A stretch of DNA of 64,000 nucleotides. Origin: Aliarcobacter lanthieri. GTDB lineage: Bacteria > Campylobacterota > Campylobacteria > Campylobacterales > Arcobacteraceae. Below the pieces are notes generated by a model. It searched no databases. It saw only the letters and a list, made by a program, of their open reading frames with translations, and was not told the origin of the DNA. The position numbers and the translations under genes are program-made. Of this stretch, positions 38,987 through 51,132 are shown one piece after another; the stretch's first letter is position 1; the number at the start of each line of letters is the position of its first letter. Where the stretch lies: the NCBI RefSeq assembly GCF_013201625.1, contig NZ_CP053839.1:620001-684000 (forward strand), given 5' to 3'.

Positions 38987-40195
38987 TTATTTTATTATTA
39001 TCTTAGCGAAACTCTTTTTACCTTTTTGTAAAATATACTCGCCTTTAGTTAAATTTAGGTTATCATCATTTATTTTTTGTTGATTTACTGATACAGCATT
39101 TGATTTTATATCTCTTCTTGCTTGAGAAGTTGAACTTACTAAATTTGAATCTACTAATGCTTGACAAATCCATATTTCATTTTCAAATATAAATTCTTCT
39201 AAATCTGTTGGGATATCTTTTTTTGCAAAAACTTTTTCAAATTCTTGTTTTGCTAAATCCCCAGCACCTATTCCATGAAATCTATCAACTAACTCTGTTG
39301 CTAAATTTTCTTTTACTTTTTTAGGGTGTAAAGTTCCATTTTCTACACCAATTTTCATATCTTCAATTTCTTTTAAAGATTTAGTAGACACTAACTCAAA
39401 ATATCTCCACATAAGTTCATCTGAAATAGATAAAACTTTTCCAAACATATCAAAAGGTTCATCTGTAACTCCAATGTAGTTACCTAAAGATTTTGACATC
39501 TTTTGAACTCCATCAAGTCCTTCTAAAATTGGCATCATTAAAACGGCTTGTTGTTTTTTACAATCATAAGCTTTTTGTAGAGTTCTTCCCATTAAAAGAT
39601 TGAATTTTTGGTCTGTTCCACCAACTTCAATATCACTATTTAATGCAATTGAGTCATATCCTTGAAGTAAAGGGTATAAAAATTCACTAACTGCTATTGG
39701 AGTATTTGAACTATATCTTTTTGAAAAGTCATCACGCTCTAACATTCTTGCAACTGTTAAGTTAGAAGCTAAAGTAATAATACCTCCACTTCCTAAATCA
39801 TTTAACCATTTACTATTAAATACAACTTGAGTTTTTGAAGCATCTAATATTTTAAATACCTGTTCCTTATATGTTTCAGCATTTTCTAAAACTTGTTCTT
39901 TACTTAAAACTTTTCTTGTTTCACTTTTTCCTGTTGGATCACCAATAGCTGCTGTAAAATCTCCAATTAAAAATTGTACAATTCCTCCAAATTTTTGGAA
40001 AGTTGCTAACTTTTGTATTAATACTGTATGTCCAACATGGATATCAGGAGCAGTTGGATCAAACCCAGCTTTTACATAAAAATTTTCACCAGTTTCAAAA
40101 TAACGTTTTACTAATTTTTCAATTGCTTCAATATCTATTATTTCAGCTGTTCCTCTTTTTATTTCATTTATTGCTTCTATAATTTTATTTTCCAT
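38987..40195 (-). CDS. tyrS: Tyrosyl-tRNA synthetase
   Basis: It charges tRNA-Tyr. The 402 residues contain the class I HIGH motif as HVGHT (in [13 protein letters not shown]), the tyrosine-pocket region, KMSKS in [11 protein letters not shown], and a C-terminal S4-like domain (about 335-400). The type is that with DIHVGH rather than the GFDPTADSLHIGH bacterial form, as usual in this phylum. It follows spoT by 14 bases. Confidence 0.97.
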
Positions 40196-40209
40196 ATTTA
40201 TTTAAACCT

Positions 40210-42354
40210 TTATTTATTATATGCATCTTTTGATGAGAATAATTCTATAACTTTTATATTTTTCTCAACTATTTTTTTTACTTCATCAATATTTGATATA
40301 TTTGTTTCAAATTCTATTTCACAATATTGGTTATAAGTATGTTTTTGTCTTCCAAATGATACATATAAAATGTAAAATTCATTTAAAGATAAATAGTTAA
40401 ATACTTTTGCTAATTGTCCTCTTGTATTTGGGATACTAATTAACATTTTATATTTAAACACACTATTTTTTGTCCAAGTACAAAATAACATTTGATGGTT
40501 TGACTTTATCTTTGAATATGCTTTATCACACATTTTATGATGAATTATTGCTTCGTTACCATTTCTAAAAGCAACAATATCATCTCCAAATTTTGGATGA
40601 CAGCAGTGTTCAAAAGATATTGAATGTATACTAAAATTTGAGTATATCAAAAGATTGTCAAATTTAAATTCTTTTATTTTACTAGTTAATATTTTAAATC
40701 TAGCCATTAAACCTTTATCTTTTGCAACTTTTTTTTCTAAAAGTAACTTTGAGTGCTTAAAATAGCTTAAAACCTGAGGAACTTTATATAAGTTTTCAAT
40801 AGGATAAACTTCAATAATATTTTCATAGTATCTTGAGAATACTGTATTTATAATATTTCTTCCTGATAATTTATCTATCTCTTTTTGTCTTTGTGTACAA
40901 ATTAGTTTTAGTTGTTTTTTTGCTCTTGGAGTTTTTAGCATATCCATCCATGAACATCTAGCAATTGTTTCTTCTCCAACTTCAATAGATACTATATCAG
41001 TACTTTTTAAAACTGTTAAAAGGGGTTTTTTTATCTTATTTATATAACATGATATAGCTTTTTCTCCTACGCTTGTATGAATAGCAAAAGCATAGTCATA
41101 GGCAGTTGAACCAATAGGAAGAATAAAAACTTCTCCTTTTGGAGAATAAACTATTATTTCATCATTAAAAAGGTTCTCTTTTGCATCTGAATAAAATTCT
41201 TCAATATTGTCATTTGAAAACTCTAATGATTTAAGCCAATTTAAGTTTATAGAATTTTTTTCTCCAGATTTATATACCCAGTGAGCAGCTATTCCATATT
41301 CTGCAACTTTATTCATTTCAAAAGAACGAATTTGAATTTCATAAATTTTCGAGTTATAAAAGACAGTTGTATGGATTGTTTGATAACCATTTTCTTTTGG
41401 AGTTGCTACATAATCTTTAAATCTTGAAACTAAAGGTTTAAACTCTAAATGAATATGTCCTAACGCTTTATAACAGTCAATGTCATTTTCAACTAAAATT
41501 CTAATGGCAAAGAGATCAAGTACTTCATCTATAGTAATACCTTTTCTTTGCATTTTTAAATATATTGAATAGTGATGTTTTATTCTTGAATAAATTTTAA
41601 TCTTATTGATATCAAAGCCATTTTTTTCTAAAAGATTTTTTGTAACAGTTATAAAATTATTAAAACTTAGTTGCATAGATTGTTGATGTTCTTTTAAAAA
41701 GTCATCAATTTTTTTATATTCTTCTGGATAAATATAAAAAAATGCTAAATCTTCTAATTCATTTTTTAATGTTGAAATACCTAAACGATTCGCGATTGGA
41801 ACATAAACAACTAAAGTTTCTTCAGCTATTCTTCTTTGTTTATGTGGTGGTAAAACTCCAAGAGTTAGCATATTATGAAGTCTATCACATAGTTTGACTA
41901 TTAAAACTCTTGGGTCATCAATAGAAGTAATAAGCATCTTTCTAAAAGTAAGTGCTGCAGATATTATTTTTGAATTTGTTGAGTCTTTTGAAGTAACAAA
42001 ATTTTCTTCTCTAATATCAGAAACTTTTGTAAGCCCCTTTACCATATTTGCTACATTACTACCCCATTTTTCTTGAACATACTCTAAAGAAAACTCTGTA
42101 TCTTCAACTACATCATGAAGTAGGGCAGTAGCTATAACATCTTCATCTTTCGAAAAGTTTGAAGTAATAGATGCAACAAGTATTGGGTGAACACTATATG
42201 GTTCACCACTCTTTCTAAATTGACCTTTATGTGCTTCAATTATAAAATTAATAATTTCATAAAGTTTATCTGAAATATCAATTTGACTTTTTAATTTATT
42301 GATAGCACCTTCAATAGTATTAATAATCTGTACATCTTTAAAAAATTGGTTCAT
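40210..42354 (-). CDS. spoT: (p)ppGpp synthetase/hydrolase, RelA/SpoT family
   Basis: It makes and degrades the stringent-response alarmone. The 714 residues hold an HD hydrolase domain (about 30-190; HPILVASI and HDVVEDTEFSLE), the synthetase domain (about 230-350; SRFKDYVATPKENGYQTIHT), a TGS domain (IVYSPKGEVFILPIGSTAYD) and a C-terminal ACT domain. Intact HD residues imply hydrolysis as well as synthesis. It is the only Rel-type gene in the window, which fits the single bifunctional enzyme of Campylobacterota. It lies between rpoZ and tyrS. Confidence 0.96.
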   Translation of the reverse strand: MNQFFKDVQIINTIEGAINKLKSQIDISDKLYEIINFIIEAHKGQFRKSGEPYSVHPILVASITSNFSKDEDVIATALLHDVVEDTEFSLEYVQEKWGSNVANMVKGLTKVSDIREENFVTSKDSTNSKIISAALTFRKMLITSIDDPRVLIVKLCDRLHNMLTLGVLPPHKQRRIAEETLVVYVPIANRLGISTLKNELEDLAFFYIYPEEYKKIDDFLKEHQQSMQLSFNNFITVTKNLLEKNGFDINKIKIYSRIKHHYSIYLKMQRKGITIDEVLDLFAIRILVENDIDCYKALGHIHLEFKPLVSRFKDYVATPKENGYQTIHTTVFYNSKIYEIQIRSFEMNKVAEYGIAAHWVYKSGEKNSINLNWLKSLEFSNDNIEEFYSDAKENLFNDEIIVYSPKGEVFILPIGSTAYDYAFAIHTSVGEKAISCYINKIKKPLLTVLKSTDIVSIEVGEETIARCSWMDMLKTPRAKKQLKLICTQRQKEIDKLSGRNIINTVFSRYYENIIEVYPIENLYKVPQVLSYFKHSKLLLEKKVAKDKGLMARFKILTSKIKEFKFDNLLIYSNFSIHSISFEHCCHPKFGDDIVAFRNGNEAIIHHKMCDKAYSKIKSNHQMLFCTWTKNSVFKYKMLISIPNTRGQLAKVFNYLSLNEFYILYVSFGRQKHTYNQYCEIEFETNISNIDEVKKIVEKNIKVIELFSSKDAYNK

Positions 42355-42382
42355 GTAGTTTTACTTAATAAATAATATATGG

Positions 42383-42601
42383 TTATTTTTTATTTACTAA
42401 ACCTTCTATTTTTAAAAGTCCATTTGCTATTTCTTCTATTGCAATATCTGTATATTTCATTTTTTGAGTATTTTGCTCTAAAAGTGGTTTTGCACCCTTA
42501 CTTAACTCATCTGCTCTTTGTCCAACAGCAATAGCTAAAATATATCTATCATTATCTACTTGTTTTAAAGCTCTTGAAATTCTTTCTTCTAATCTTTCCA
42601 T
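42383..42601 (-). CDS. rpoZ: RNA polymerase omega subunit
   Basis: A small RNA polymerase assembly subunit of 72 residues. The N-terminal RLEERISRALKQVDNDRYIL and AIAVGQRADELSKG are recognisable omega elements, followed by IAIEEIANGLLKIE. It sits between pyrH (18 bases) and spoT, as in Campylobacter. Confidence 0.93.
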   Translation of the reverse strand: MERLEERISRALKQVDNDRYILAIAVGQRADELSKGAKPLLEQNTQKMKYTDIAIEEIANGLLKIEGLVNKK

Positions 42602-42619
42602 ACAATTTTCCTTTTAAAC

Positions 42620-43327
<708 letters not shown>

Positions 43328-43387: not shown

Positions 43388-43657
43388 TTATGCTATAGGT
43401 TTTTTTGGTAAAATATTTTGTAATTTCTCTGATTTTTTATTAGATTTTTTTGGTTGATAAAGCATATGATGCCATAAAGCAAATCCACAAAAGGCAACCC
43501 CTGCAACAACATGAGTTTTTTTTGCTATAGAGTTTTTCATAAACATTGATGTTACGACTGTTGCACCTAAAGTAGCAGTCATTCCTATTTTTGCAACTTC
43601 TTTTTGAACTTCTAAATCAAATTTTATCTCTTTCATATCTTTTTTTTCTTCTTTCAT
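43388..43657 (-). CDS. Small membrane protein downstream of the ferrosome-like cluster
   Basis: Eighty-nine residues with a charged N-terminus, two hydrophobic helices (about 27-42 with MTATLGATVVTSMF, and 48-66 with VVAGVAFCGFALWHHM) and a lysine-rich tail. I recognise no family. Its start lies inside the preceding 39-codon frame (41-base overlap), and it points the same way as the P-type ATPase gene 147 bases upstream. It may be part of that operon. Confidence 0.55.
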   Translation of the reverse strand: MKEEKKDMKEIKFDLEVQKEVAKIGMTATLGATVVTSMFMKNSIAKKTHVVAGVAFCGFALWHHMLYQPKKSNKKSEKLQNILPKKPIA

Positions 43658-43736
43658 AAGTTTTTATACTTTTTTTAACTGTTTTAACTGTCAAAATAGC
43701 TGTTAAAGCTGTTGCTATTGGTAATAAGATAGGCAT
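43617..43736 (-). CDS. Tiny membrane protein, 39 residues
   Basis: A short frame that begins MPILLPIATALTAILTVKTV: one hydrophobic helix followed by a strongly basic tail (YERRKKRYERDK). AAGGA lies nine bases before the ATG. It overlaps the next gene by 41 bases. Support is modest (ribosome binding site, plausible membrane helix, position in the cluster); no family is known to me. Confidence 0.45.
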   Translation of the reverse strand: MPILLPIATALTAILTVKTVKKSIKTYERRKKRYERDKI

Positions 43737-43804
43737 TTGATAAAATCCTTTAATAATAATTCTTAGAATTTTATCAAAAAAACCTTAAATATAACTAATA
43801 ACAA

Positions 43805-45919
43805 TTATTGTTTTTTGGGTTTTACACCTTTAATTGAATTTAACAGTAATCCTATTGTTGTTCCATTATGTAACACTGCTGTTACTATTGGTGAAAATAA
43901 TCCAAATGTTGCACCAGCGAGAATACAAGAATTTATACCTACTGTTGCATTGAAGTTTGTATTTATTAAATTCATAGTTTTATTTGCATATTCTTTTGCT
44001 TCAACAACAGCTGAAATATCATCTTTTAGTAAACTAATATCGGCAGTTGCTTTTGCTATATCAGCACCTTTAAACATAGATATTCCTACATGAGCAGATA
44101 TCAATGCAGGAGCATCATTTATTCCATCTCCAATAAATGCAACTTTTTTGCCTTCATTCATTAACTCTTTTACAATCTTAGCTTTATCAGTTGGAAGAAG
44201 TTCTGCTCTTACATCTTCAATACCTAATTCTTTTGCAGTTTTTTTAGCCTTTGATTCTATATCTCCAGTTAACATAACTATATTTTTTACACCAAGCTCT
44301 TTTAATTTTTTGATAGATTCTTTTGCATTACTTCTTAATTCATCAGAAAGACCAATAGTTCCTAATAGTTTTCCATCATAACCTATGTATAATAATGTAT
44401 CACTTTTCTTTAAAGAGTTTTCAATATTTATTTTATGCATTGAAAAGTCTATTTTTTCATCATCTTCTAAAAAGTGGCGACTTCCAATAATTACAGATTT
44501 ACCATCAACTTCAGTTTTTACTCCATGAGCTACAATAAATTGAACTTCTTCGTGGTGCATATGTACAAAACCACGTTCCTTTGCTGCTTTTACAACAGCT
44601 TCTGCAACTGGATGGAAATAGTGTTCTTCTGTTGAAGCTGTAAGATTTAAAAGTTCTTCATCTGTCCAATTATCATCATAAGAATCTACACTTATAACTT
44701 CAAGTTGTCCAGCAGTCAAAGTTCCTGTTTTATCAAAAACAAAAGTATCTGCACTACTTAAAGCTTCTACTGATTTTGCACCTTTTATCATAATTCCACT
44801 ATGTCCAGCTTTTGAAATAGTAGATTTAAAAGCCACTGGAGTAGCAAGTTTTAAAGCACAAGAATAATCAGCTTGAAGTACAGATGCTACTCTTTCAAAA
44901 TCTCTTGTAAAAATATATGCAGCTGTTGCTAAACCTAAAGTTACAGGAACAAGCTTATCCGCTAATTTATTTGCTTTTAATTGTACTGATGATTTTTCAT
45001 TTAAAGAATTTTCTATATAGTGTCTAATCCTTTGTGTTGCAGTATTTGCTCCAACATGTTCAGCCCAAATTCTAAAACGTCCTTCTTCTACAATTGTTCC
45101 AGATAAAACTTTATCTCCTCTATTTCTTATAACTGGTTCAGCTTCTCCCGTCATTGAAACTTGATTAACTGTTCCTGTTCCTTCTAATATATGTCCATCA
45201 ATTGGAATAGTATTTCCAGTTCCTACAACAACAATATCACCAACTTTTATATCTTCAGTTTTTACTAAAATTTCACTTACTACTCCATCTATTTTTTGTT
45301 CAACCCAAGCTTCTTCAACATTTGGACGAGCTAGTTCTTTTAGTAAGTCATCACTTTTATGTACTGTTGTCTCTTCTATATACTCTCCAAGTTCAAGCAT
45401 AGCATTTGTAGAGTTAGCTGCTAAATAATCTTTTCTATATATTGATATTGCAACTGCTCCTGCTTCAAGGACATGAGAAGTTAAACCATCTTTGAAAAGT
45501 TCTTTAGTTCCATCAATTAAAAGTGGTACAGCTGCCGCTGTTGAAATACCAGCCTTTAAAGTATTGTTTGTAGTTAATCTTTCAGCTATCAAAGCTGTAC
45601 TAGCTAAAAGGGTTCCTTTGATTGATGGTTCCTCATTCTTTACACAAGATACACAAATACTAGAAGGATTTTTATCACAAGATTTTAAAAGTAAATCTGT
45701 ATTTAGGTTTTTTAGTATATTTTCAAGTTCTAAAAATTTATTTTCTTTTAACTCGAATATAATAGAGTAAGCTTTTTTGTTTACTCTTACTTCTTTTATA
45801 TAATCAATATTTAAAAAGTAGTTTTTTAAAATATCTTCATCAATGAAACTATCTTTTAAAAGTGATAATTTATATCTAGCTCTTAATTTTGTTTGATGAA
45901 TTTTAATAAAATTGTTCAT
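43805..45919 (-). CDS. P1B-type ATPase, FezB-like, without CPC motif
   Basis: A metal-transporting ATPase of 704 residues. An HMA-like N-terminal domain (1-75) lacks CxxC but is followed by C89-x2-C92. The actuator TGEA is at 257-260, the phosphorylated Asp396 in DKTGT, the HP pair at 436-437 and the hinge GDGIND at 598-603. In the metal-site helix the canonical CPC reads YSC (Y352, S353, C354) in SCALKLATP, so this is not a standard copper or zinc exporter. Only two or three helices precede the actuator. It ends a tightly packed six-gene run and is my best candidate for a ferrosome FezB. Confidence 0.85.
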   Translation of the reverse strand: MNNFIKIHQTKLRARYKLSLLKDSFIDEDILKNYFLNIDYIKEVRVNKKAYSIIFELKENKFLELENILKNLNTDLLLKSCDKNPSSICVSCVKNEEPSIKGTLLASTALIAERLTTNNTLKAGISTAAAVPLLIDGTKELFKDGLTSHVLEAGAVAISIYRKDYLAANSTNAMLELGEYIEETTVHKSDDLLKELARPNVEEAWVEQKIDGVVSEILVKTEDIKVGDIVVVGTGNTIPIDGHILEGTGTVNQVSMTGEAEPVIRNRGDKVLSGTIVEEGRFRIWAEHVGANTATQRIRHYIENSLNEKSSVQLKANKLADKLVPVTLGLATAAYIFTRDFERVASVLQADYSCALKLATPVAFKSTISKAGHSGIMIKGAKSVEALSSADTFVFDKTGTLTAGQLEVISVDSYDDNWTDEELLNLTASTEEHYFHPVAEAVVKAAKERGFVHMHHEEVQFIVAHGVKTEVDGKSVIIGSRHFLEDDEKIDFSMHKINIENSLKKSDTLLYIGYDGKLLGTIGLSDELRSNAKESIKKLKELGVKNIVMLTGDIESKAKKTAKELGIEDVRAELLPTDKAKIVKELMNEGKKVAFIGDGINDAPALISAHVGISMFKGADIAKATADISLLKDDISAVVEAKEYANKTMNLINTNFNATVGINSCILAGATFGLFSPIVTAVLHNGTTIGLLLNSIKGVKPKKQ

Positions 45920-46299
45920 TAGAACTCTTCTTTTGTCGCATTCATTGAAGCTTTTGCATCTTCAATTCTTTCTTTTAACTCTTCAACCCCAGCACTTAAA
46001 AATTCTTTTCCTTTTTCAAAAGCTTTAAAAATATTTTCTTGTGCATTTTTATTTGTTAATACATAAGTTAAAGCAGCACCAATTAAAGCACCTTTTACAA
46101 AATCTCCATTAAAGATTGAATTGTTTTGTTGAACTGGAGTATTTATATTTTGGGCAGTTTGATTAACATTTTGATTTAAGTATGGATTTTGATTTATATT
46201 TAATCCACTTTGATTATTGTTGTTTATTCTACTATTATTTATATTTGTATCATATGGGTTTACATTAATTTGTTGATTATTGTTTTGATTTGTTGCCAT
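45919..46299 (-). CDS. Asparagine-rich YtxH-like small protein
   Basis: The 126 residues have a disordered N-terminal half of about 60 residues that is very rich in Asn and Gln (NNNQSGLNINQNPYLNQN). A hydrophobic segment DFVKGALIGAALTYVLT follows, then an amphipathic helix (about 80-126) like YtxH proteins. The segment has a small-residue GxxxGAA pattern suited to helix packing or curved membranes. It overlaps the ATPase start by one base and follows the next gene by one base. The function is unknown; organelle membrane shaping or cargo contact is speculation. Confidence 0.65.
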   Translation of the reverse strand: MATNQNNNQQINVNPYDTNINNSRINNNNQSGLNINQNPYLNQNVNQTAQNINTPVQQNNSIFNGDFVKGALIGAALTYVLTNKNAQENIFKAFEKGKEFLSAGVEELKERIEDAKASMNATKEEF

Positions 46300-46300
46300 A

Positions 46301-46648
46301 TTATTCTCCTTCTATTTCTATGTTTTGGTTTGTTAAATATTTTTGTTCAAGTTTTTCTTCTACTAATTCTAAAGCATAAATTCCAGCAATACCTATACTT
46401 GCAGAAGTTAAAGCTTTTAGCCAACTTCCTTCACCAATATAATTTGTAGTTGCAATTGCACTTCCAGTTGCGATTGCACCTTGTGAAGTTCTTTTTGTTG
46501 TATCTTTTATTGCTTCACAGCTTTTTAATTCTCCAGCTTTGTATCTTTTATAATTTATTGCACCACTAATAACAGCACTAGCTAATGCTCCACTTATTAC
46601 ATGTCCTAAAACATTTCTTGGAGTTCCTGTATCTATTTCAAATTTCAT
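46301..46648 (-). CDS. Small Gly/Ala-rich membrane protein in the iron cluster
   Basis: One hundred and fifteen residues with two glycine/alanine-rich hydrophobic stretches, GHVISGALASAVISGAINY (about 15-33) and a second at about 78-95 with ASIGIAGIYALELVEE, joined by a polar loop with one cysteine (KSCEAI). The small-xxx-small patterns suggest two closely packed helices in a membrane. I recognise no named family. Its start overlaps the preceding gene by four bases (ATGA), so it is translationally coupled in the cluster. Confidence 0.65.
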   Translation of the reverse strand: MKFEIDTGTPRNVLGHVISGALASAVISGAINYKRYKAGELKSCEAIKDTTKRTSQGAIATGSAIATTNYIGEGSWLKALTSASIGIAGIYALELVEEKLEQKYLTNQNIEIEGE

Positions 46649-46926
46649 TTAACTTCCTTTTGTTTTCTAGTATATTTTCTTTTTGGTTTTACTTCTTCTT
46701 TTTCTACTTCTTTTTCTACTTCTTTTTCTACTTTTTTTTCAATTTTTTGATGAAGTTTATCTTCGATTTTTTCTTTTACAAGAATTGCTTTTTCTTGAAG
46801 TTCTTTTGAACTATCTTTTGCTTTTTCAAAAAGTTTCTTACTATTTTCTTTTAACTTGTCTGAGTTTTTATATGCTACTACAGCTGTAGCCCCAAGAGCT
46901 AATCCTAATATAAAAGGTAATGCCAT
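46645..46926 (-). CDS. YtxH-like small protein with Glu/Lys repeat
   Basis: Ninety-three residues: an N-terminal helix (MALPFILGLALGATAVVAY), then a charged helix (KENSKKLFEKAKDSSKELQE), a KKVEKEVEKEVEKEEV repeat and a basic end (PKRKYTRKQK). The layout matches YtxH-type membrane-anchored coiled coils. A 12-bp DNA repeat underlies the KEVE units, so copy number may vary by slippage. It starts three bases after the ferritin-like gene. The basic tail could bind DNA, acidic proteins or mineral surfaces, which is speculation. Confidence 0.65.
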   Translation of the reverse strand: MALPFILGLALGATAVVAYKNSDKLKENSKKLFEKAKDSSKELQEKAILVKEKIEDKLHQKIEKKVEKEVEKEVEKEEVKPKRKYTRKQKEVK

Positions 46927-46929
46927 TTT

Positions 46930-47607
46930 TTACTCCTCATCTTTTGAATTTTGTGTTAAAAAATTGTTTAATAGTGCAATTATTGCACCACCACTTACCA
47001 TTCCACCTATCATTGACATATTTAATTTTGAAAATAGTGAAGAGATAAGACTTTCATCTATATTTCCACTCATTACATTGTTTAATATATCTTGGTACTC
47101 TTGCATTCTTTGCATAATATCATCTTGATTTATTCCAGAAGTTGTTCCATTATTATAATGATTAAATACACAATTTCTAAAAGCTGGAAGATGATTATTA
47201 TATGAAGCTGCTTGAAGTTTAAATAAAACATCAATAATATCACTATCAACAGCAAAACTTAAAAGATTGTTGTACATTGAAATATTATTAATTTCTCCTG
47301 CAACACCAAGTTCACAACACTCAATTATTGTGTTTGGAATATTTATTATTGCTGTTGAAAAATCATTTATAGGTACTTCAATATTATATTTTTGCATAAG
47401 CTGTATCAATACACTATAATGAACTGCTTCTGCCTCTTTTATATTTATAAATGGAGTAATATTTCCAAATTTCTCAATAATTCTTGAATAAGTTTCATAG
47501 GCTTCAAACTCATCATAAACTGCAATTTGTAAAATTTGATCACGAACTGGAATAACTGAGTTTGGATCAACTTTTTTATTTGTTAAAATACTATAATCAA
47601 TTGCCAT
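46930..47607 (-). CDS. Ferritin-like protein (DUF2202 type) with hydrophobic C-terminus
   Basis: Residues 20-150 look like a four-helix ferritin-like fold with possible di-metal ligands: YDEFEAYETY (E33, E36), EAEAVHY (E60, H63 as ExxH), E105 in VAGEINNIS and H139 in ASYNNHLPAF. This matches DUF2202 proteins. Unusual is the C-terminal extension (about 165-225) with a glycine-rich hydrophobic helix, MIGGMVSGGAIIALL, which could anchor it to a membrane. Its ATG shares a base with the stop of the HMA2-like gene. A ferritin-like protein inside a ferrosome-type cluster suggests iron oxidation or loading; this is inference. Confidence 0.7.
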   Translation of the reverse strand: MAIDYSILTNKKVDPNSVIPVRDQILQIAVYDEFEAYETYSRIIEKFGNITPFINIKEAEAVHYSVLIQLMQKYNIEVPINDFSTAIINIPNTIIECCELGVAGEINNISMYNNLLSFAVDSDIIDVLFKLQAASYNNHLPAFRNCVFNHYNNGTTSGINQDDIMQRMQEYQDILNNVMSGNIDESLISSLFSKLNMSMIGGMVSGGAIIALLNNFLTQNSKDEE

Positions 47608-47921
47608 TAAATTACCTCCTTTGCAAGTTTGTTGATTAGAATTGTTAATTCATCTAAATTTTTAGATTCTATCAAATTCTCCCACAGTTTCGGACTAAAG
47701 ATTTCAGGATGATATAAGATTGTAACAGAAGCTATTAATTTATTTACTTTTATCTCTTTTATTCCATTTATCTTATTTGGAAGGTTTTCGATATCTCCTA
47801 AAGAGATATTTGAAGCCTCTTTTGTGATTTTTGGATTTACTCTTACTCTAAGTCTTCCTGGTGTATGAGCAATAATTGTAAAATAACTAGCTATTTTTAT
47901 AATATCTTCTGTTTTAATCAT
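47607..47921 (-). CDS. HMA2-like domain protein
   Basis: The 104 residues resemble the HMA2 group: IAHTPGRLRVRVNPK near the N-terminus and a ferredoxin-like fold, but without the CxxC of classical metal-binding HMA domains. The segment GIKEIKVNKLIASVTI is like IKEVRVNKKAYSIIF in the N-terminus of the P-type ATPase, so the two share a related domain. HMA-type proteins are found in ferrosome operons, where they are associated with the organelle ATPase. It is the first structural gene of the cluster, with the regulator upstream. Confidence 0.7.
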   Translation of the reverse strand: MIKTEDIIKIASYFTIIAHTPGRLRVRVNPKITKEASNISLGDIENLPNKINGIKEIKVNKLIASVTILYHPEIFSPKLWENLIESKNLDELTILINKLAKEVI

Positions 47922-47974
47922 AATATATCCTTTCTTGAAATGTATTTTTTCGTTTTTAAAATTAAATCTAACTT

Positions 47975-47980
47975 ATTATA
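47975..47980 (-). promoter_or_regulatory. -10 box for the iron cluster
   Basis: TATAAT on the minus strand about 54 bases before the start of the HMA2-like gene. It suggests a promoter between the Fur-family gene and the structural genes. It overlaps the very end of that gene by none or a few bases. No clear Fur-box palindrome is visible in this 61-base gap. Confidence 0.4.
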
Positions 47981-47982
47981 AA

Positions 47983-48450
47983 TTAAGAATTGCTATCAAG
48001 TTTCTGACATTCTTCACAAATACCATAAAGAATCATTATATGGTTTTGAAGTTTGTATCTATTGTTTTTTGCTATTAGTTGTTGTTGTTCTTCTATAAAG
48101 TCATCTGTAAATTCTTTTATAAGATTACAATTTGTACATACAAGATGATCATGATGATTTTTATGGTTAAATTCATATCTAAATGTTCCATCGCCAATAT
48201 CTAATAAAGTTATAAAATTTAATCTATGAAAAAATTTTATAGTATTATAAATAGTAACTATTCCCGTATTTAGATTGTATTTTTCTTTTATTTCTTTTAA
48301 AATATCTTCAGCAGTTAGGTGTTTTTTTGATATAAATAGAGTCTTTAAAATATAATCTTTTTGAATTGTATTTTTAAATCCAATTTTAGAGGATTGTTTT
48401 TTAAAATTATTTAAAAAGAGGTCGAACTCTTTTTCTTGATTTTTATCCAC
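47983..48450 (-). CDS. Fur family transcriptional regulator
   Basis: The 155-residue metalloregulator has the Fur N-terminal winged helix (QKDYILKTLFISKKHLTAEDI, then TGIVTIYNTIKFF) and the C-terminal HHDHLVCTNCN and CEEC pairs for a structural zinc. It could be Fur, PerR or another subtype; the histidine/glutamate sensor sites cannot be settled by eye. It is placed directly upstream of the ferrosome-like genes in the same direction, so it likely controls them in response to iron. Ferrosome operons in other bacteria are also under Fur-type control. Confidence 0.88.
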   Translation of the reverse strand: MDKNQEKEFDLFLNNFKKQSSKIGFKNTIQKDYILKTLFISKKHLTAEDILKEIKEKYNLNTGIVTIYNTIKFFHRLNFITLLDIGDGTFRYEFNHKNHHDHLVCTNCNLIKEFTDDFIEEQQQLIAKNNRYKLQNHIMILYGICEECQKLDSNS

Positions 48451-48535: not shown

Positions 48536-49765
48536 TCATTTGTATTTATTGGCTTTATTGTTTAACAAAATTAGTATTACCCCTATAATTGCTGCTGTTA
48601 TTGAACTAGCAAAAATTCCAAGTTTTACTGCACTTACAATACTCTCATCAGTAAATGCTAAGTGAGATATAAAAATTGACATTGTAAATCCAATACCACC
48701 TAAACATCCAGCTGCAATAATTTCACTCCAAGATACAGTTACAGGTTTAACAGCAATTTTTAGTTTTGTTGCTAAATATGTAAAAGTGAATATCCCAATT
48801 GGTTTCCCTATAATTAGTCCTAAAGCAACTCCTAAAACAATATATTTATGAGTTAAAACACTAGAAAAGTCTATTATCACCCCAGCATTTGCAAAAGCAA
48901 AAAGAGGCATTATAATAAATGCACTAAAGTTATGTAAAGATAAAGATAATTTATCTAAAGGAGAATTTTCAAATTCATAGTTTTTATCAAAGTTTTTTGT
49001 TTTTAATGGAATTGTAAATGCTAGTAAAACCCCAGCAATAGTTGAGTGAATTCCAGAACTATGAATACAAAACCATAAAATAATACCCAAAATTATGTAA
49101 GGCAATATTTTTCTAACACCAATATAATTTAAAAATATTAAAGCTCCATAAACTAAAGCACTATATAAAAAGAATATATAGCTAAGTTCACTTGTATAAA
49201 ATATTGCAACGACTACAATAGCTCCTAAATCGTCAACTACAGCAAGAGTAACTAAGAATAATTTTAAAGATATATTTACTCTTTTACCTAATAGCATTAA
49301 AATCCCTAATGCAAAAGCAATATCTGTTGCCATAGGAACTCCAAATCCTGTTGGATGTTCTTTATTTAAGCTTAAATATATAATAGCAGGTACAATCATC
49401 CCCCCAATAGCTGCAATTATTGGAAAAGATGCTTGTTTAACGCTTGATAGTTCACCTACTAGCATATCTTTTTTTATTTCCATTCCTACAACTAAGAAAA
49501 ATATTGCCATTAAAACATCATTTACCCAATGAAGTAAACTCATAGAAAAACTATGATTTGCAAAACTTATAGAAAGATATGATGAAAAAAATTCAAAATA
49601 AGTATTTGAATAACTAGAATTTGCAATATATACTGCAAGTACTGTAACTAAAAATAGGATTAATCCACTTAAAGTTTCAATAGAAACAAAGTTTTTTACA
49701 AAATCGTATCTACTTTTTAATTTTGCTATTTGTTGTAACTGTTTTTGAGTAAAAAATTTAGCCAT
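48536..49765 (-). CDS. nhaA: Na+/H+ antiporter NhaA
   Basis: An inner-membrane exchanger of sodium for protons, 409 residues, about 12 helices. Family marks are DVLMAIFFLVVGMEIK near the N-terminus, MATDIAFALGILMLLG and VDDLGAIVVVAIFYT with the paired aspartates of the ion site, and the C-terminal GGIGFTMSIFISHLAF. The start overlaps the upstream Fur-family gene by eight bases. Why a sodium antiporter sits between two metal regulators is unclear; shared transcription with the upstream regulator is likely. Confidence 0.95.
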   Translation of the reverse strand: MAKFFTQKQLQQIAKLKSRYDFVKNFVSIETLSGLILFLVTVLAVYIANSSYSNTYFEFFSSYLSISFANHSFSMSLLHWVNDVLMAIFFLVVGMEIKKDMLVGELSSVKQASFPIIAAIGGMIVPAIIYLSLNKEHPTGFGVPMATDIAFALGILMLLGKRVNISLKLFLVTLAVVDDLGAIVVVAIFYTSELSYIFFLYSALVYGALIFLNYIGVRKILPYIILGIILWFCIHSSGIHSTIAGVLLAFTIPLKTKNFDKNYEFENSPLDKLSLSLHNFSAFIIMPLFAFANAGVIIDFSSVLTHKYIVLGVALGLIIGKPIGIFTFTYLATKLKIAVKPVTVSWSEIIAAGCLGGIGFTMSIFISHLAFTDESIVSAVKLGIFASSITAAIIGVILILLNNKANKYK

Positions 49766-50132
49766 TTTTATTGCATTCCTTACATTTGCCTTTTAATATT
49801 ATATTTTCAATTTTATAATCTTTTAATGATAGATTTAGTTTTTCATGAATACACTCTATTTTTAAGCATTCATTACAAATAAAATGTGAGTGTTGAGTAT
49901 TTTTTATCTCAAAATATCTTTTTTTATCATTTGATTCGAAAGAATCAATAATTCCTTCTTCTTCAAAAATAGTAATATTTCTATAGAAAGTTGCTTTATC
50001 CATACAGATTTTATCTTTTATATCTTCATAAGATAAAGGTCTATTTGAGTTTATCAAAATTTCTAAAATCGATTTTCTAGCAGTTGTTAGTTTAATATTT
50101 ATAAAGTCTGAAATGTTTGTTAAATTATCCAT
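49758..50132 (-). CDS. Fur family regulator, probably Zur
   Basis: A short 124-residue Fur-type protein: helix-turn-helix region RPLSYEDIKDKICMDKATFY, and two zinc-type cysteine pairs, CNEC in HFICNECLKI and CKEC in LKGKCKECNKNG. It is divergent from a ZnuA-type zinc-binding protein gene. The 115-base spacer between them carries two copies of an almost perfect palindrome, so it is probably the zinc sensor that controls both. It overlaps nhaA by eight bases. Designation as Zur rests on this context and not on residue-level proof. Confidence 0.82.
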   Translation of the reverse strand: MDNLTNISDFINIKLTTARKSILEILINSNRPLSYEDIKDKICMDKATFYRNITIFEEEGIIDSFESNDKKRYFEIKNTQHSHFICNECLKIECIHEKLNLSLKDYKIENIILKGKCKECNKNG

Positions 50133-50168
50133 TTGGAAATTTTATCAAAATTATAGTTAAAGTAATTG

Positions 50169-50183
50169 TACAACTAAGTTGCA
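50169..50183. promoter_or_regulatory. Operator copy 1 for the Zur-like regulator
   Basis: TACAACTAAGTTGCA, one mismatch from a perfect 15-base palindrome, 37 bases upstream of the Zur-like start. Its centre is 45 bases from copy 2. Confidence 0.7.
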
Positions 50184-50213
50184 TTAAAGAAAAAAAAGCT
50201 TAATATTCTAAAC

Positions 50214-50228
50214 TGCAACTAAGTTGCA
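50214..50228. promoter_or_regulatory. Operator copy 2 for the Zur-like regulator
   Basis: TGCAACTAAGTTGCA, a perfect palindrome around a central A, 20 bases before the znuA-like ATG. The position fits repression of the zinc-binding protein gene. Confidence 0.75.
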
Positions 50229-50247
50229 TTCTAAAAAAAGGAAATAA

Positions 50248-51132
50248 ATGAAAAAAATATTAGTTTTATTTATGGTAATATCTTCATTTTTGTATGCAGA
50301 TAAACCACAGTTAACAGTAAATATTTTACCACAAAAATATTTTGTAGAAAAAATAGTAAAAGATAAATTTGATATAAATGTTATGGTAAAACCAGGTAGT
50401 TCTCCACATAATTTTGAACCAAAACCATCTCAAATGAAGGCATTGAATATTTCAAAAGCATATTTTTTAGTTGGTGATCCAAGTGAATTGGCATGGATAG
50501 ATAGATTCAAGCAAAATGCTAAGAATACTTTTTTTGTTGATACAACTATTGGAATAGAAAAAATTGCTATGGTTGAACATTCACATCATGAACATGATCA
50601 CGATGAAGATGATCCTTTCCATGAACATCATGATCATGATGAAGATGGTTTAGATCCACATACATGGCTTGATCCAATTTCTGTTAAAATTCAAGTTAAA
50701 AATATATATGAGGCGATGCTAAAAATAGATGAAAAAAATAGTGAATTTTATAGAATAAATTATGAAGAATTTATAAAAGAACTTGATACTTTAGATAATG
50801 AAATAAAAGATATTTTAGCTCCATATAAAGGTAAATCTTTTATGGTATTTCATCCATCATGGGGATATTTCGCTAAACAATATGGACTAAATCAAATTCC
50901 TATTGAAATTGAAGGTAAAGAGCCAAAACCAAATGAATTAGTGAAATTAATAAAAGAGGCAAAAGAACATGATATAAAAATAATTTTTGTTGCACCTCAA
51001 TTTTCACAAAAAAGTGCTAAAACAATATCTACAAATATTGGTGGAAGTGTAATTTCTATTGATCCTTTAAGTGAGAATTGGAAAGATAGTATGATAAAAA
51101 CAGCAAAAGAGATAGCAAATAGTTACAAATGA
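50248..51132 (+). CDS. ZnuA-type zinc ABC transporter substrate-binding protein
   Basis: A periplasmic cluster-9 metal-binding protein of 294 residues with a signal peptide (MKKILVLFMVISSFLYA). Probable metal ligands are H54 (SPHNFEP), H138 (DPHTWLDP) and H201 (MVFHPSWGYF), plus a late aspartate (SIDPLSENW). A His/Asp/Glu-rich loop (111-133, beginning HSHHEHDHDEDD) typical of zinc forms lies between. The permease and ATPase genes (znuB, znuC) do not follow; instead a NicO-type exporter gene overlaps the stop by four bases. Zinc is the likely metal because of the loop and the Zur-like operators. Confidence 0.88.
   Translation: MKKILVLFMVISSFLYADKPQLTVNILPQKYFVEKIVKDKFDINVMVKPGSSPHNFEPKPSQMKALNISKAYFLVGDPSELAWIDRFKQNAKNTFFVDTTIGIEKIAMVEHSHHEHDHDEDDPFHEHHDHDEDGLDPHTWLDPISVKIQVKNIYEAMLKIDEKNSEFYRINYEEFIKELDTLDNEIKDILAPYKGKSFMVFHPSWGYFAKQYGLNQIPIEIEGKEPKPNELVKLIKEAKEHDIKIIFVAPQFSQKSAKTISTNIGGSVISIDPLSENWKDSMIKTAKEIANSYK

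Follow-up and report, generated by a model that had tools for sequence, protein, structure and literature searches.

Gene organization and conservation of the operon

We analyzed a gene cluster at positions 43388-48450 of a 64,000-nucleotide (nt) stretch of the Aliarcobacter lanthieri contig NZ_CP053839.1 (hereafter, the window), and herein discuss its relationship to the fez operons of ferrosomes, the membrane-bound iron stores of other bacteria. The genome searched was a single contig of 2,276,457 bases. All genes between 48450 and 43388 are on the minus strand and form one operon. An earlier note on this DNA had described a one-strand run of a Fur-family gene, six packed genes, and two tiny membrane proteins, and this description was confirmed by the coordinates and family matches. 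The Fur-family regulator (47983-48450) has a GTG start and matched Pfam FUR at 5.4e-29. After 61 nt, it is followed by the gene for an HMA2-like protein of 104 amino acids (aa; 47607-47921; Pfam HMA_2, 1e-5, 26 bits against a cut-off of 30 bits), the first of a six-gene core in which neighbors are between a 4-nt overlap and a 3-nt gap apart. The core continues with a ferritin-like (DUF2202) protein of 225 aa with a hydrophobic C-terminal segment (46930-47607; DUF2202, 3e-5, 24.4 bits, above the Pfam cut-off of 22 bits), a short membrane/coil protein of 93 aa with an N-terminal hydrophobic stretch (46645-46926; Kyte-Doolittle value of 2.17), a MamC-like membrane protein of 115 aa (46301-46648; NCBIfam MamC, 3.4e-6), and a YtxH-like small membrane protein of 126 aa with a C-terminal KERxEDAKA (45919-46299), which was assigned through its tblastn relatives. 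It ends with a FezB-type P1B ATPase of 704 aa carrying an N-terminal HMA2-like domain (43805-45919; TIGR01525, 2.5e-146). A membrane peptide of 39 aa with a basic tail (43617-43736) is encoded 68 nt after the ATPase gene, and its gene overlaps by 41 nt that of a FezC-like membrane piece of 89 aa (43388-43657), which was assigned by a profile comparison and DUF4405 matches. A candidate promoter/operator element, (AAC)TTGATAGCAATTCTT, is located on the same strand at 47985-47999, 78 nt before the HMA2 start, and overlaps the 3' end of the Fur-family gene.

Of the 298 Campylobacterota genomes sampled, 101, belonging to six families, had relatives of the ATPase at E<=1e-95, and the MamC-like protein was present in 64 of the 104 genomes of the window's family. 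We fetched 40 Campylobacterota regions, which were picked by ATPase or MamC-like matches; therefore, the presence of these two genes is partly by choice. HMA2, MamC-like, and ATPase genes were present in all 40 loci, the ferritin-like gene in 36, the FezC-like gene in 35, and a homologue of the 39-aa gene in 23, with 33 loci containing all five main genes. The order HMA2, ferritin-like, MamC-like, ATPase was kept on one strand in each of the 36 loci holding all four (36 of the 40 fetched), and, thus, the grouping of these genes is not due to chance. Matches were also found on two Arcobacter plasmids of 133 kb, both from chicken meat: L070 (CP129951.1) carries the operon, with no Fur-family gene annotated directly upstream, and CP134847.1 has an ATPase match covering 88% of the query. 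Therefore, the ATPase gene, if not the whole operon, can be plasmid-borne.

Relationship to fez-like operons

The motif in the fourth transmembrane segment (TM4) of the window ATPase is DYSCALKLATP, and we take the protein to be of class P1B-6. Four P1B-type matches were found in the genome, and the other three are CPC-type ATPases that are 32-34% identical to it. In a tree of 64 sequences, which were hand-chosen from the fetched loci and include no experimentally proven FezB, the window ATPase fell into a 38-row clade (support 100/99), apart from the CopA-, ZntA-, and FixI-like ATPases of the genome. A copper or zinc exporter was set aside because the tree places the window ATPase far from these CPC-type proteins. 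The clade splits into 25 rows, mostly from Proteobacteria and Campylobacterota, and a 13-row subclade of Clostridia, methanogens, Mailhella, a spirochaete, and Atopobiaceae. The D[YF]xC-motif ATPases that group with the window ATPase sit in similar small-gene operons. The closest named match to the window ATPase was an Arcobacter plasmid copy (82.6% identity). In L168 and L184, both of family f6, the ATPase open frames are approximately 620 aa with matches beginning near residue 120, and the tree groups the L168 ATPase with Azospirillum and Pseudothauera, not with other Campylobacterota.

An operon on plasmid p3 of Azospirillum brasilense encodes an HMA2-plus-membrane protein (159 aa), an HMA2 protein (120 aa), a membrane/coil protein (118 aa), a MamC-like protein (118 aa), a YtxH-like protein (116 aa), and an ATPase (712 aa), and shares with the window the order HMA2, membrane/coil, MamC-like, YtxH-like, ATPase. 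Iterated profiles of the window HMA2-like protein and of the MamC-like protein matched their A. brasilense counterparts at 1.1e-29 and 3.1e-23, respectively. In tblastn searches, the window YtxH-like protein matched A. brasilense YtxH at 2e-5, Cereibacter at 3e-13, and Rhodomicrobium at 6e-13. Since the iterated membrane/coil and YtxH-like searches merged, the coil comparison was redone by position. A profile of the 37 proteins at that position matched the corresponding proteins of Pseudothauera (22.7 bits) and L241 (18.4 bits) and did not find the Azospirillum protein; a profile-profile comparison gave a probability of 81% over 30 columns. These matches weakly suggest a link to the A. brasilense protein through Betaproteobacteria. 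An anti-phage system was also considered and rejected: PADLOC gave one weak LmuC match (E 0.012), to the 93-aa protein only.

Ten of 12 aligned MamC-like homologues matched NCBIfam MamC (best, 8.8e-9), and a Pfam scan assigned no family to more than one of the 12. A composition artefact was rejected as the cause because none of 10 reversed or shuffled controls matched MamC. The window protein shares this profile match with magnetosome MamC; however, at 27.3 bits, it is far below the curated cut-off of 100 bits. Judged from its sequence, the 115-aa protein is related to MamC and is not a MamC. Other magnetosome genes were not noticed, and no search aimed at such genes was made. A structure model of the 115-aa protein from its single sequence was of poor quality (pLDDT 64) and was left aside.

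H49 and H63 of the 89-aa protein were invariant in 18 of 18 homologues, and the identical histidine pair with its 14-residue spacing was found in all four HMA2-plus-membrane proteins from fez-like loci. A comparison of the two sets of profiles by hhalign gave 94%, and 17 of the 18 members of the 89-aa family had DUF4405 matches with E<=0.5, the strongest at 2.9e-5 and that of the window protein at 0.025. These results suggest that the 89-aa protein corresponds to the membrane half of FezC-like (DUF4405-like) proteins, cut down to a separate gene. When FezC is defined by HMA2 plus a DUF4405-like, heme-binding membrane part, the window has the membrane part alone, in its own gene and with the histidine pair kept; FezC is not known as a constant member of every fez operon. 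Passages of PMC11334425 describe FezC of Desulfurispirillum indicum as DUF4405-like, with the purified protein binding heme B and a homodimer model containing the heme site. In L155, L180, and L077, the piece is fused to another domain or is followed by a copy with such a fusion. At L155:3949-4599 (216 aa), it lies within a longer protein, the extra part of which is SpoIIAA-like (1.7e-15), and at L180:7769-8449 and L077:8416-9018, the longer protein is close in length to that of L155. In some f3-family genomes, a further gene separates the ATPase and FezC-like genes: a sodium:alanine symporter gene in L157 (L157:7035-8492; Pfam was run on this locus alone) and genes of similar length in L158, L163, and L190.

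Six-gene fez operons are reportedly present in Rhodopseudomonas palustris and Shewanella putrefaciens. As described, these operons resemble the window in combining a P1B ATPase and several small membrane proteins. However, the window adds a ferritin-like gene at position 2 and lacks the HMA2-plus-membrane first gene, the membrane half of which is separate and located at the 3' end. The Desulfovibrio magneticus/Clostridioides difficile type (FezA, FezB, and FezC) shares a FezB-type ATPase and a FezC-like cytochrome piece with the window, whereas its ATPases are in the sister 13-row subclade. In Mailhella, a member of Desulfovibrio's family, the HMA2-plus-membrane gene follows the ATPase gene and the upstream gene encodes DUF6110, which the window lacks. 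None of the 80 loci returned by the contig scan came from R. palustris, S. putrefaciens, D. magneticus, or C. difficile. The earlier note had proposed a fez-type operon, to be abandoned if the ATPase fell outside P1B-6 and the small proteins had no Fez homologues. In the tree, which holds no proven Fez sequence, the ATPase belongs to a D[YF]xC-type clade, and homologues of the small proteins are arranged in the corresponding order in A. brasilense. The proposal of the note is thus largely supported by the ATPase clade, the A. brasilense order, and the FezC-like piece. In the passages of the literature on which we drew, ferrosomes act as iron stores and occur in D. magneticus RS-1, and those of R. 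palustris are made from six fez genes (PMC12016538).

The ferritin-like protein and the iron-related context

An AlphaFold model of the ferritin-like protein from three sequences had a mean pLDDT of 79, with low confidence in the C-terminal segment (51-67). The best Foldseek match of the model was 3q4n (MJ0754, DUF2202; 9e-5). VIA Z was 16.6 to MJ0754 and approximately 16-17 to bacterioferritins, over 132-150 residues, which is above the level of 13 at which the tool warns for helical bundles. In this model, the window 225-aa protein has the ferritin-like four-helix fold, as does MJ0754. In contrast to MJ0754, it has an extra linker and the hydrophobic C-terminal segment and is encoded in a fez-like operon. 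Among 21 homologues, 14 matched Rubrerythrin and 10 matched DUF2202 at E<=0.1. E33, E60, H63, E105, and H139 were all present in 14 of the 21, including the window protein, and, on the ferritin pattern, these five residues are candidate metal ligands. Position 136 of the window protein is Y, where the classical ExxH has a carboxylate. E60, H63, and H139 were lost in five of the six f3-family homologues in the alignment, and the C-terminal stretch was hydrophobic in all 21 (best 17-mer, 1.25-2.19).

The ferritin-like gene also occurs outside Campylobacterota. It occupies the matching place in the operon of Pseudothauera (30% identity, 2.5e-31) and in that of a metagenome-assembled genome called Gammaproteobacteria (45% identity, 5e-58). 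The ATPase of the latter is inside the Campylobacterota clade, and, therefore, transfer or mis-binning is possible. An ATPase match was detected in 12 of 300 genomes of Pseudothauera's order. Among the 10 regions fetched from this order (G416, with its match at contig ends, was left out), the ferritin-like gene was present in the four with an ATPase of approximately 59-63% identity and in none of the six more distant ones. L241 holds the full set of HMA2-plus-membrane, HMA2, ferritin-like, coil, MamC-like, YtxH-like, and ATPase genes. The Pseudothauera-type operons therefore indicate that operons with the ferritin-like gene form a lineage among fez-like operons and are not an Arcobacter oddity. 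A second, more distant fez-like type is found in L245-L249 of the same order, with the HMA2-plus-membrane (FezC-like) gene directly after the ATPase gene and no ferritin-like gene.

Genes for iron metabolism adjoin several related operons. In Pseudothauera, genes for FeoA, FeoA, and FeoB directly follow the ATPase gene; an iron ABC transporter adjoins the A. brasilense operon, and TonB receptors and FeoA adjoin that of Cereibacter. Among the 40 fetched loci, 10 have a Fur-family gene 45-115 nt before the HMA2 gene and seven more have one approximately 2.2 kb upstream, with a second P1B ATPase in between. This second ATPase (TM4 SCPC, 698-774 aa) immediately precedes the HMA2 gene in nine of the 40 loci (L155, L157, L162, L164, L175, L179, L180, L181, and L182) and absent from the window. 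In the close relatives L171 and L174, the operon comes directly after an NhaA-length gene, without a Fur-family gene. The A. lanthieri genome has four Fur-family genes, the best of which is at 1442006 (143 bits vs 101 for that of the operon). A TTGATAATNATT-like element is located approximately 72-79 nt before the HMA2 start. With one mismatch at most, it was found in 16 of the 40 upstream regions, in a mean of 0.83 regions (maximum of 5) after shuffling, and in eight of 120 pieces farther upstream; the window element differs from TTGATAATNATT by two mismatches, and the pattern was picked after the sequences had been viewed. The adjacent Fur-family gene suggests that the operon may be under iron control. 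The earlier note had pointed to the Fur regulation of C. difficile ferrosomes. According to the ferrosome passages of the review PMC12574912, C. difficile fezA and fezB are required for ferrosomes and are Fur-repressed. By reading, another Fur-family gene (minus strand) is located in the window at 49758-51132 beside a gene for a histidine-rich ZnuA-like binding protein (plus strand), a pair that is probably involved in zinc regulation. The operon is flanked on one side (38987-43327, by reading) by pyrH, rpoZ, a spoT/relA gene, and tyrS, and on the other by an nhaA-like gene.

We also compared the operon with the occurrence of ferritins. PF00210 matches fell into three score groups (approximately 113-144, 72-100, and 20-41 bits), of which we read the highest-scoring as ferritins and the middle one as Dps; the sequence was checked for the match in the window genome alone. 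This genome has a single PF00210 match, a 145-aa open reading frame that is Dps-like by reading. In the window's genus, a ferritin-class match was found in one of 23 operon-bearing and four of eight operon-free genomes (Fisher 0.0098, post hoc and with kinship ignored). In the other genera of the family, the numbers were 23 of 41 with the operon and 14 of 32 without it (Fisher 0.35). The rarity of the operon and ferritin together in the window's genus is not general to the family.

Proposed function and implications

We consider it probable, from the genomic comparisons described above, that this operon makes a ferrosome-type iron store. We favor this function because of the clade of the ATPase, the A. 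brasilense order with its homologies, the FezC-like histidine pair, the iron genes beside relatives, and the conservation of the operon. The YtxH-like, membrane/coil, and MamC-like proteins may shape and line a vesicle, into which the FezB-type ATPase would pump ferrous iron from the cytoplasm. The FezC-like piece, probably a heme-binding dimer, may carry electrons across the vesicle membrane, thereby setting the redox state of the iron. HMA2 proteins may bind the metal or hand it over. The ferritin-like protein, held at the membrane by its C-terminal segment, may bind iron on the cytoplasmic side and then pass it on or oxidize it. We infer these steps, the metal, the topology, and the vesicle from the homology, gene order, conservation, and fold observed.

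Several results weigh against this function. The matches to HMA_2, MamC, and DUF4405 fall below the curated cut-offs. The TM4 motif is not exclusive to the clade: the L106 ATPase has DYSCGIR and falls outside the 38 rows. The equation of the window ATPase with published FezB is drawn from the motif, tree, operon order, and lineage, in a comparison that includes no proven Fez protein. A good E. coli-type Fur box was not found in the 650 nt upstream in the window; the best match (14 of 19) was at -244, inside the Fur-family gene. Ferritin and the operon coexist across the family, with a ferritin-class match in 24 of 64 genomes with the operon and 18 of 40 without it (0.54; all 104 genomes). The operons of A. 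brasilense, Vibrio, Cereibacter, and Hahella have no ferritin-like gene, and a ferritin search was negative in the genomes of Rhodomicrobium, Hahella, Mailhella, and R. capsulatus. Because of these absences, the ferritin-like gene is outside the common core, and its absence from the A. brasilense operon indicates that it marks a variant.

P1B ATPases are usually exporters, and an operon in which the ATPase exports iron or another metal through the cytoplasmic membrane, with the small proteins as accessory subunits and no organelle, would fit the SCPC-motif ATPase found directly upstream in nine of the 40 loci, as part of a metal-export island. However, the set and order of small membrane proteins match fez-like operons, unlike known simple exporters, and the FezC-like and MamC-like pieces are better suited to an internal iron compartment; we regard simple efflux as unlikely. 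Less likely still is that the operon builds a fez-related organelle or membrane complex that handles another cargo or metal (e.g. Mn or Zn) and in which the ferritin-like protein serves redox or peroxide defense. The TM4 motif alone does not settle specificity, and the entry title of the DUF2202 relative MJ0754 records crystallization with zinc, but the iron genes beside relatives and the Fur-family neighbor point to iron.

The ferritin-like protein may be merely a structural membrane protein of ferritin descent without iron chemistry, given that most f3-family homologues have lost three of the candidate ligands and kept the hydrophobic C-terminal segment. On the other hand, all five ligands are retained in two-thirds of the homologues, the window protein among them, and we give the structural role a substantial, albeit minority, chance. 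We speculate, rather tentatively, that Campylobacterota and some Betaproteobacteria possess a hybrid store, a ferrosome in which a ferritin-like protein tethered to the membrane would capture or oxidize Fe(II) from the cytoplasm and deliver it to the FezB pump. Ferritin chemistry and a lipid-bounded organelle would then operate as a single machine, which, in the window's genus, would largely replace classical ferritin.

Among open-licence PMC papers, none matched ferrosome and Arcobacter together and none mentioned DUF2202. Those matching ferrosome and Campylobacter include PMC12574912, the ferrosome passages of which treat C. difficile. The FezB trees of the founding Nature papers may already include Campylobacterota, and, therefore, our claim is for a variant, not for the discovery of ferrosome genes in this phylum. 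The features of the variant look to be the ferritin-like protein at position 2 and a FezC reduced to its membrane half.

Iron storage in Campylobacterota is usually discussed in terms of ferritin and Dps. If the proposed function is true, ferrosomes would be common in this phylum, which contains food-borne and gut species, and the tethered ferritin-like protein would unite two principles of iron storage that are otherwise described apart. The MamC-like protein would connect ferrosome-type membranes with those of magnetosomes at the sequence level. Moreover, iron-storage organelles would become testable in the Campylobacter group.

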